Below, piece after piece: positions 101-5,094 of a stretch of 64,000 nt of DNA. Under the pieces are notes generated by a model. It was not told where the DNA came from. It did no database searches and worked only from the letters and a program-made list of their open reading frames with translations. A program made the translations under genes and the position numbers. This DNA is from Bacillota bacterium (lineage in GTDB: Bacteria > Bacillota > JADQBR01), in contig JADQBR010000006.1 of the NCBI GenBank assembly GCA_016278515.1, positions 1-64,000 of the forward strand, in the 5' to 3' direction. Positions within the stretch are counted from its first letter, which is position 1; each line of letters starts with the position of its first letter.

Positions 101-136
101 AAAAAGACCTTTGAGTTAATCAAAGGTCTTTATTTT
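101..136 (-). terminator. Rho-independent terminator after the tandem structured RNAs
   Basis: A 12-bp perfect stem (AAAGACCTTTGA, loop about 5 nt, TCAAAGGTCTTT) is followed on the minus strand by a T-rich tail (TTTTTGTTTTG). It sits 8 nt beyond the second structured RNA. The minus-strand transcript that includes the DUF3800 gene and both RNAs would therefore end here. Confidence 0.85.
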
Positions 137-143
137 AAAAATA

Positions 144-224
144 TAAGTTAATTGCCTGAACACGATGATAACACATATCACTTACCTAGAGAATGGCGTG
201 CCCTCAGGACTTACTGTTAACCTA
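144..224 (-). ncRNA. Structured RNA element B (second of a tandem pair) downstream of DUF3800
   Basis: Read on the minus strand, three helices can be drawn. P1 pairs UAGGUUAA (224-217) with UUAACUUA (151-144). P2 pairs CCUGAG with UUCAGG. P3 is a hairpin UGAUA-UGUGU-UAUCA. The unpaired blocks UAAGUCC, GGUAAG and GGCAAUU are the same as in element A, while the helix bases differ but still pair. That is compensatory covariation seen within one locus. A terminator follows directly. Published structured-RNA surveys named several 'DUF3800' RNA motifs found near DUF3800 genes. I infer this belongs to that group but cannot assign a specific Rfam family. Confidence 0.7.
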
Positions 225-296
225 CTTATAGACTATATTATTTTGTAGCCTTTGTCAACACGTGTGTTTACAATATTTCAAGAAAAATTTATTTAA

Positions 297-380
297 GTAA
301 CATCAATTGCCCATGTATGACACTAACACATAGTGCTTACCGAGAAAAAGGCATAACATAGGACTTATTGTTGATGCTAC
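297..380 (-). ncRNA. Structured RNA element A (first of a tandem pair) downstream of DUF3800
   Basis: Minus-strand RNA starting 35 nt after the DUF3800 stop codon. P1 pairs GUAGCAUCAA (380-371) with UUGAUGUUAC (306-297), 10 bp including one G-U. P2 pairs CCUAUGU with ACAUGGG. P3 is a hairpin CACUA-UGUGU-UAGUG. It shares loop and joining sequences with element B (UAAGUCC, GGUAAG, UGUGU, GGCAAUU) while every helix carries different but complementary bases. The spacing to element B is about 72 nt. Confidence 0.7.
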
Positions 381-4710: not shown

Positions 4711-5094
4711 CTATCCGTAAGACTGATCTCCTTGACTTAATAGTTCCTTTAATTTCACCCTTACTTCATCTATATCAAACGGCTTATACCAGACATCCAC
4801 GACACCTGTCTCCTTAGCAATTTTCAAGCTTTTCTCCTCTGCATAGGCTGTCATGATGATAACAGGCAGATCAGAGTAGTGTTTCTTTATCCATTGTAAT
4901 GCGGCTATCCCATCCATCACTGGCATTCTGACATCCATTACAACCATCTTGGGTCTAACTTCTTTAATTTTATTTATAGCATCCAAACCGTTTACGGCTG
5001 TATCTGCCATCAGCCCCTCTTCTTGACAAAGAAGACTCAGAAGCGTTCGTACTCCGGGTTGGTCATCCACAATCAAAATTGCTTTTTGCGCCAT
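4711..5094 (-). CDS. spo0F: Sporulation phosphorelay response regulator Spo0F
   Basis: 127-residue stand-alone receiver domain with no output domain. In the sporulation phosphorelay such a protein accepts phosphate from sensor kinases and passes it to Spo0B or directly onward. Visible residues are the acidic pair DD in ILIVDDQPGVRTLLSL, the phosphoacceptor D in VVMDVRMPVMDG, T in MTAYAEEKS, and K in YKPFDIDEVR. The IVDDQxGxR and KPFDIDE strings match Spo0F more closely than CheY. A good ribosome site (GGAGGG) precedes the ATG. It is monocistronic, with its own terminator. Many Clostridia lack the full phosphorelay, so the partner is uncertain. Confidence 0.85.
   Translation of the reverse strand: MAQKAILIVDDQPGVRTLLSLLCQEEGLMADTAVNGLDAINKIKEVRPKMVVMDVRMPVMDGIAALQWIKKHYSDLPVIIMTAYAEEKSLKIAKETGVVDVWYKPFDIDEVRVKLKELLSQGDQSYG

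Follow-up and report, generated by a model that had tools for sequence, protein, structure and literature searches.

A structured RNA accompanying a subfamily of DUF3800 genes and its possible role as antidote to an RNase-H-like protein

The window analysed here, the whole stretch of 64,000 nt at the start of contig JADQBR010000006.1 of a Bacillota bacterium (assembly GCA_016278515.1), contains a DUF3800 gene followed by two structured RNAs, and raises the question of what these RNAs do for the gene or for its protein. DUF3800-associated RNAs have, to our knowledge, been carried on lists for years without a function. A first interpretation of the bare sequence (hereafter, the sequence-only reading) had proposed that the protein and the tandem RNAs form one unit, possibly resembling a toxin-antitoxin pair. 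Here, we approach the question through homologous loci, 73 bacterial and 44 viral, which were fetched by protein for RNA comparison.

The locus and its signals

On the minus strand of the window, copy A of the RNA starts 35 nt past the stop codon of the DUF3800 gene and is followed by copy B and by a terminator (Table 1), in the order that the sequence-only reading had described. The start of the gene was picked by agreement with a homologue (L011) and by a Shine-Dalgarno-like agaggtg, and is thus presumed. Both RNAs are recognised by the covariance model R1 and, again as proposed earlier, the helices P1, P2 and P3 pair in A and in B with different bases, around constant UAAGUCC, GGUAAG, UGUGU and GGCAAUU. 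Compared with shuffled sequences, single-sequence folding gave z = -3.3 for copy A and an only moderate z = -1.9 for copy B, so the two copies alone are not decisive and covariation within one locus is suggestive, not proof. Since A and B are 58.5% identical inside a locus, against 58.9% across loci, they are, on this measure, old paralogues and not a fresh repeat. Elsewhere in the window, a short cut-off frame on the plus strand (1554-1742; WWMIRAGDNNELIPIWKEKVIASIGWPRLGDP), which had no match in Pfam, may resemble the start of a restriction or defence gene.

Table 1. Coordinates of the DUF3800 gene, the RNA copies and their signals in the window
Feature	Positions	Strand	Remarks
DUF3800 protein, 228 aa	415..1101	-	GTG start at 1101; mechanical ORF 415-1125
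RNA copy A	291..379	-	covariance model R1, 85.5 bits
RNA copy B	136..225	-	covariance model R1, 94.1 bits
Copy A helices	P1 371-377/300-306; P3 hairpin 331-336/320-325	-	
Copy B helices	P1 217-223/145-151; P2 197-208/155-164; P3 hairpin 176-181/165-170	-	
Copy B promoter	230..258	-	perfect -35 TTGACA at 258-253; site conserved in 57/60 loci
Rho-independent terminator 3' of copy B	103..131	-	12-bp stem, 5-nt loop, T-rich tail; folding z = -5.7

A promoter of the pattern TTGACA-N16-18-TATAAT, with at most two mismatches, ends 1-6 bases upstream of the RNA in 57 of the 60 single or B copies sampled (50 single RNAs and 10 B copies), and no such positioned promoter precedes the A copies of tandem loci, which suggests that copy B is transcribed independently, whereas copy A is probably carried at the 3' end of the DUF3800 mRNA. 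In the window the -10 element of copy B is weak (TAGTCT after 17 nt, 235-230, or TATAGT after 15 nt, 237-232), and for this reason a generic promoter scan missed it. A terminator-like site lies 3' of the RNA in 61 of 73 cases. RNAs downstream of the gene predominate (65 cases, against 8 upstream), the median distance to the gene being 49 nt, and at two loci, in Gemella and Peptostreptococcus (L116 and L124, minus strand near 4737 and 4731), the RNA is convergent, on the strand opposite to DUF3800.

These positions bear on the simplest explanation, that the RNA is only a cis element which governs how stable the DUF3800 mRNA is, where it ends or how well it is translated, perhaps with autoregulation by the bound protein. 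Copy A, which has no promoter of its own and probably belongs to the 3' end of the mRNA, and the mostly downstream placement at this distance are what it would predict; however, single and B copies are equipped with promoters, and the RNA is also found upstream, convergent, on another contig or without the gene, so that we consider this explanation highly improbable. On account of its own promoter and of its placement behind, before or opposite the gene, these sequence signals mark the RNA as the conserved, folded product of a separate gene, equipped with promoter and terminator and bound to no fixed position or strand, rather than as a regulatory 3' end. A small promoter-bearing RNA beside a possible toxin gene could, furthermore, be the antisense partner of a type I toxin-antitoxin pair, acting by pairing with the DUF3800 mRNA. 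Nevertheless, the RNA pairs about as well with the start regions of other loci (-26.4 kcal/mol) as with that of its own (-27.1 kcal/mol), which on average ranks 17th of 39, and the RNA is under strong structural constraint; an antisense role was rejected on these energies and its probability is next to negligible.

Fold and relatives of the RNA

The RNA was first recovered next to close homologues in two further genomes, and 61 homologous RNAs are compared in alignment A2. The consensus consists, in order, of P1, the constant CAGUAAGU, P2 (5+5 pairs, interrupted on the 5' side by a two-base bulge), a short stem, UAA, P3 and CAA. The short extra stem, formed by a C-G pair and by a C-G/U-A pair that covaries, turns P2 and P3 into a three-way junction; the P3 hairpin carries a UGUGU loop and is followed by the constant CAA, and P1, all 7 pairs of which covary, encloses the core. 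The covariation that had been noticed between the two copies extends across homologous loci, with double-sided changes in 22 of the 25 pairs. When scored on the structure taken from A2 itself, 92.6% of paired cells are filled by pairs, against 73.5% after shuffling and at most 45% with the 3' side slid, and the covariation score is 0.62, against 0.25 in shuffled alignments, none of 500 of which reaches it. RNAalifold, run unguided, returns the same fold plus a covarying pair at columns 16-86.

The same three-way junction is also the unguided consensus fold of 16 Bacilli-type RNAs (alignment A4) from Streptococcus satellite phages, Listeria phage PSA, Enterococcus and others, which mostly have UAAUUC instead of UAAGUC and in many of which the short stem is longer. 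R1, built from Clostridia-type RNAs, detects two RNAs of the Bacilli type (L137 and L165). RNAs of this type lie 3' of DUF3800 genes in Listeria phage PSA (gp21; L009:3208-3400) and in Streptococcus satellite phages (also L005-L008 and L010), and no Rfam family matched at those Listeria PSA and Streptococcus satellite loci.

The comparison with Rfam DUF3800 motifs that the sequence-only reading had advised gave no match at cut-off in the window, where no family of Rfam 15 reached its gathering score and permissive E-values yielded only chance matches. The DUF3800-I model (RF02969) scores below its cut-off of 44.2 bits at L011 (31.4 bits) and L023 (28.7 bits), and none of the further Rfam DUF3800 families matched these RNAs. 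Conversely, R1 aligns with the true DUF3800-I RNA of L213 over positions 18-71 (26.8 bits, E 1.6e-5) and does not detect that of L214. Like the window RNA, DUF3800-I RNAs adjoin a DUF3800 gene (L213, L214) and have a three-way-junction core made of P2 with a two-base 5' bulge, a short stem, UAAG and a hairpin with a UGU-type loop; unlike it, they have a separate 5' hairpin and a core without an enclosing helix, whereas in the window RNA P1 closes around everything and a UAAGU/GGCAA internal loop is present. The sub-cut-off scores and the match of R1 to the core at L213, but not at L214, place the RNA outside RF02969, with which it probably has the core in common; relative to that family, the enclosing P1 and the UAAGU/GGCAA loop appear to be new. 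In the broader sense, the window RNA fits the group of DUF3800-associated motifs, being a conserved structured RNA beside DUF3800 genes.

Conservation along the RNA is also relevant to its function, since in the core unpaired positions (1.44 bits) are more conserved than paired ones (1.05 bits) and the aligned RNAs hold no variable unpaired segment. The variable guide segment of RNA-guided nucleases (OMEGA, Argonaute) is thus absent, and a guide RNA was rejected on this basis.

The protein and its pairing with the RNA

The window protein matches the Pfam family DUF3800 (PF12686) with 50.8 bits, against a cut-off of 21, and in 48 homologues the D and E of DESG, the E of ELKG, the D, R and N of DERN and the D of QIAD are invariant. 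In structural searches with its AlphaFold2 model (pLDDT 94.8), the closest solved folds are RNase HII (1eke, E 7e-4, probability 0.99, TM 0.40-0.48) and then RNase H3, a moderate match, and the model thus suggests an RNase-H-like fold with invariant acidic residues. Sequence profiles gave no link between DUF3800 and the RNase HII of this genome, so the assignment rests on the predicted fold and on a published one, which places DUF3800 among RNase H folds whose catalytic residues are rearranged and remarks on the putative ncRNAs associated with it (PMC10910872). Searching solved structures by sequence returned only chance DnaJ hits. The DUF3800 proteins of type V-A2 and VI-F CRISPR systems share the Pfam domain and a predicted RNase H fold with a rearranged active site (PMC10910872, PMC12669027), but neither a CRISPR array nor a Cas gene was seen in the window unit, and no model of PADLOC-DB 2.0, in which neither DUF3800 nor its RNA is represented, matches the window protein or three relatives.

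How strictly gene and RNA go together was counted from both sides. Of 61 intact homologous DUF3800 genes of Clostridia and Bacilli that have 300 bp or more of sequence on each side, 59 adjoin the RNA; the two exceptions are L115, which continues downstream as a run of N, and L075, where the RNA lies elsewhere in the genome. Starting from the RNA, a scan of 399 genomes across the phylum gave strong matches in three only (G000, G097 and G359), exactly those with a close homologue of the DUF3800 protein; a match of 30 bits in G393, standing alone with no DUF3800 nearby, was rejected as a probable chance match. The scan was widened to 391 genomes of a class and 130 genomes of a family, and in these whole-genome searches 19 of 20 RNA sites adjoin a DUF3800 gene or its remnant. 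The RNA is nearly obligately paired with this DUF3800 subfamily. Most loci hold one RNA, so that the tandem arrangement, on which the sequence-only reading had placed weight, is true of the window but is not general. In viral contigs, a single protein query found no relatives and a query with a protein alignment did.

Protein and RNA have also diverged together (Mantel r 0.54 between their distances, a value reached in none of 2000 permutations), and with the co-occurrence seen from gene and RNA sides this strongly supports the earlier proposal that the two form one unit. Such co-divergence would equally be expected of a housekeeping or regulatory ribonucleoprotein without toxin or defence role that hitches on mobile elements. 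However, occurrence is patchy (the three genomes above out of 399), the gene occupies cargo sites in phages and satellites, and loss almost never leaves the gene without the RNA, which makes a housekeeping role quite improbable. The cargo sites of homologues are beside integrases in Streptococcus satellite phages, behind lysis genes in Listeria phage PSA, between terminase and portal, and between lysis genes and integrase. In Clostridium sp. ZS2-4 (L052), the gene directly after the DUF3800 stop (1205) and RNA B has a Card1 CARF domain (PF23400), a kind found in accessory proteins of type III CRISPR systems, and the surroundings of the unit in this strain may thus be a defence region.

Loss, separation and a proposed antidote

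The loci in which the unit is damaged are the most informative on the direction of dependence. The N-terminal part of the protein, DESG included, is lost at L111, L112, L118 and L289, everything beyond the first 25 residues at L192/L195; a frameshift breaks L107, and in-frame stops interrupt L083 and L285. Each of these loci keeps an RNA of at least 80 bits, and no intact gene was seen in a genome without any RNA, except at the gapped L115. This is the order of loss expected if the protein is a toxin and the RNA its antitoxin, as the toxin may go before the antitoxin and not after, and it is not predicted for a mere cofactor RNA; young gene remnants may mimic the asymmetry.

Gene and RNA can also be separated. 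At L075 the gene is intact, with every motif residue present, and no RNA is nearby; the genome (G782, a metagenome bin) has one RNA (81.3 bits), with a strong promoter-like sequence upstream, on another contig between uracil-DNA glycosylase and patatin genes, and no DUF3800 gene within the 14 kb fetched around it. In three relatives (L059, L062 and L079) a homologous patatin gene, 79-86% identical, comes after DUF3800 and the RNA. In this bin, gene and RNA are therefore physically apart in one genome, as a partner acting in trans allows.

An element occurring without DUF3800 genes had been named as an outcome that would speak against a unit, and such RNAs do occur, at low frequency: one of the 20 genomic RNAs, the split G782 and four phage contigs. 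The RNA-first scans with the covariance model found the RNA in 19 viral contigs, of which 13 also hold an intact DUF3800 gene, two a remnant and four neither. L179 has no DUF3800 across a whole record of 124 kb, and its RNA lies among small genes; L023 has none in 19.6 kb, and its RNA, with a promoter of its own, adjoins an Abi_2 gene between terminase and portal; in L198 the RNA lies between portal and scaffold genes and in L182 3' of the tail tube gene, these two contigs being short fragments whose missing parts could hold the gene. The RNAs of L179, L198 and L182 lack a promoter and would be read with the phage genes. The sole bacterial orphan, in G738, overlaps a SocA/Panacea frame of antitoxin type at the 5' end of that frame, the two lying on opposite strands (L212:5587-6223); the only DUF3800 gene of that genome belongs to a different subfamily and was rejected as its partner. 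BLASTN of two orphan RNAs and of the window RNAs against annotated phages returned nothing. A broader DNA pattern occurs in 54 further viral contigs without a match to the model, and the covariance model is therefore specific. Taken together, the orphans, several of them within phage operons, speak less against a unit than for an antitoxin that is open to borrowing by phages.

The terminase-portal gap appears to be a recurring cargo site, holding DUF3800 and RNA in L127 and L133 and the orphan RNA and Abi_2 in L023, where the Abi_2/AbiD gene (L023:7209-8379) seems to have its own terminator and where abiF RNA (RF03085) gave no match. At L213, a DUF3800-I RNA and DUF3800 lie directly 3' of a terminase gene.

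The main rival to an antitoxin remains an RNA-activated or RNA-guided nuclease, to which the RNA would be a required cofactor or guide and with which it would attack invaders (compare OMEGA, TnpB and Argonaute). Obligate pairing would be expected of a cofactor too, the RNase H fold is common to several RNA-guided nucleases (PMC10910872), and cargo sites in prophages and satellite phages would suit it. On the other hand, the RNA has no variable single-stranded stretch, its unpaired bases being the best conserved, and it persists beside defective genes and, within phage operons, on its own, although a cofactor would serve no purpose there; we consider this rival unlikely, the cofactor form being the one that has to be taken seriously.

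The patterns of loss, separation and phage uptake suggest instead that the RNA is an antidote restraining a toxic enzyme. We propose, with a probability of roughly 0.6, that gene and RNA form a toxin-antitoxin unit of a type-III-like kind or an abortive-infection unit, the RNA acting in trans to neutralise an RNase-H-like nuclease. The reasons are the asymmetry of loss, the trans case, the phage RNAs, the own promoter and the free position, together with the precedents of AbiF and pseudo-ToxI; from these we infer binding, toxicity and defence. Of the relation suggested by the sequence-only reading, what has been gained is thus indirect support, from an RNA that has its own promoter, stands in any position or on another contig and outlives broken genes. 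According to this proposal, the RNA would block the nuclease by binding it, the invariant UAAGU/GGCAA internal loop and the UAA junction being the probable contact sites; a phage disturbing transcription, or loss of the carrying element, would deplete the RNA, and the freed nuclease would damage nucleic acid, with abortive infection or addiction as the outcome. Each DUF3800 mRNA would carry, with copy A at its 3' end, a built-in antidote or feedback site, copy B, with its own promoter, would supply free antidote, and RNAs within phage operons would be borrowed antidotes. That this is a new RNA-antitoxin defence unit, a nuclease of RNase H type silenced by a three-way-junction RNA in Clostridia, Bacilli, prophages and satellite phages, which phages counter with the RNA alone, is a more tentative proposition, to which we give slightly less than even odds.

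Among known systems, AbiF/Abi_2 with abiF RNA (RF03085) is similar in being prophage cargo that joins a nuclease-type protein to an adjacent structured RNA with its own promoter, and in Clostridioides difficile this RNA (RCd22) neutralises the AbiF toxin in cis and in trans (PMC12373285). However, AbiF is a HEPN protein and DUF3800 is RNase-H-like in its model, and the abiF RNA consists of hairpin motifs of 33-37 nt upstream of the gene, whereas the DUF3800 RNA is an 85-nt three-way junction that lies mostly downstream. The type III system ToxIN likewise has an RNA beside a nuclease-type gene (PMC5086642, PMC5449768), and the pseudo-ToxI RNA mimic of phage PhiTE resembles the phage-borne RNAs described here (PMC5449768); unlike them, ToxI is a pseudoknot repeat of 34-36 nt (PMC12373285), upstream of a toxin of another fold. 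Two traits of type III pairs are absent in our unit, the ToxN or HEPN fold, for which the model gives an RNase-H-like one, and short upstream RNA repeats.

The comparative evidence turns the observation of an RNA near a gene into a specific question, whether the protein is toxic and silenced in trans by an RNA of 85 nt. The RNA-controlled toxins that we know of otherwise have a ToxN or HEPN fold, and, if the proposal is true, an RNase-H-like toxin would join them. Cas13 is considered to descend from one of them, AbiF (PMC12737573), so a second nuclease fold under RNA control would bear on the origin of RNA-guided systems. Phage-borne RNAs would be natural candidates for RNA anti-defence, part of the group of DUF3800-associated RNAs would gain a role, and the shared core would extend the antitoxin role to DUF3800-I RNAs.
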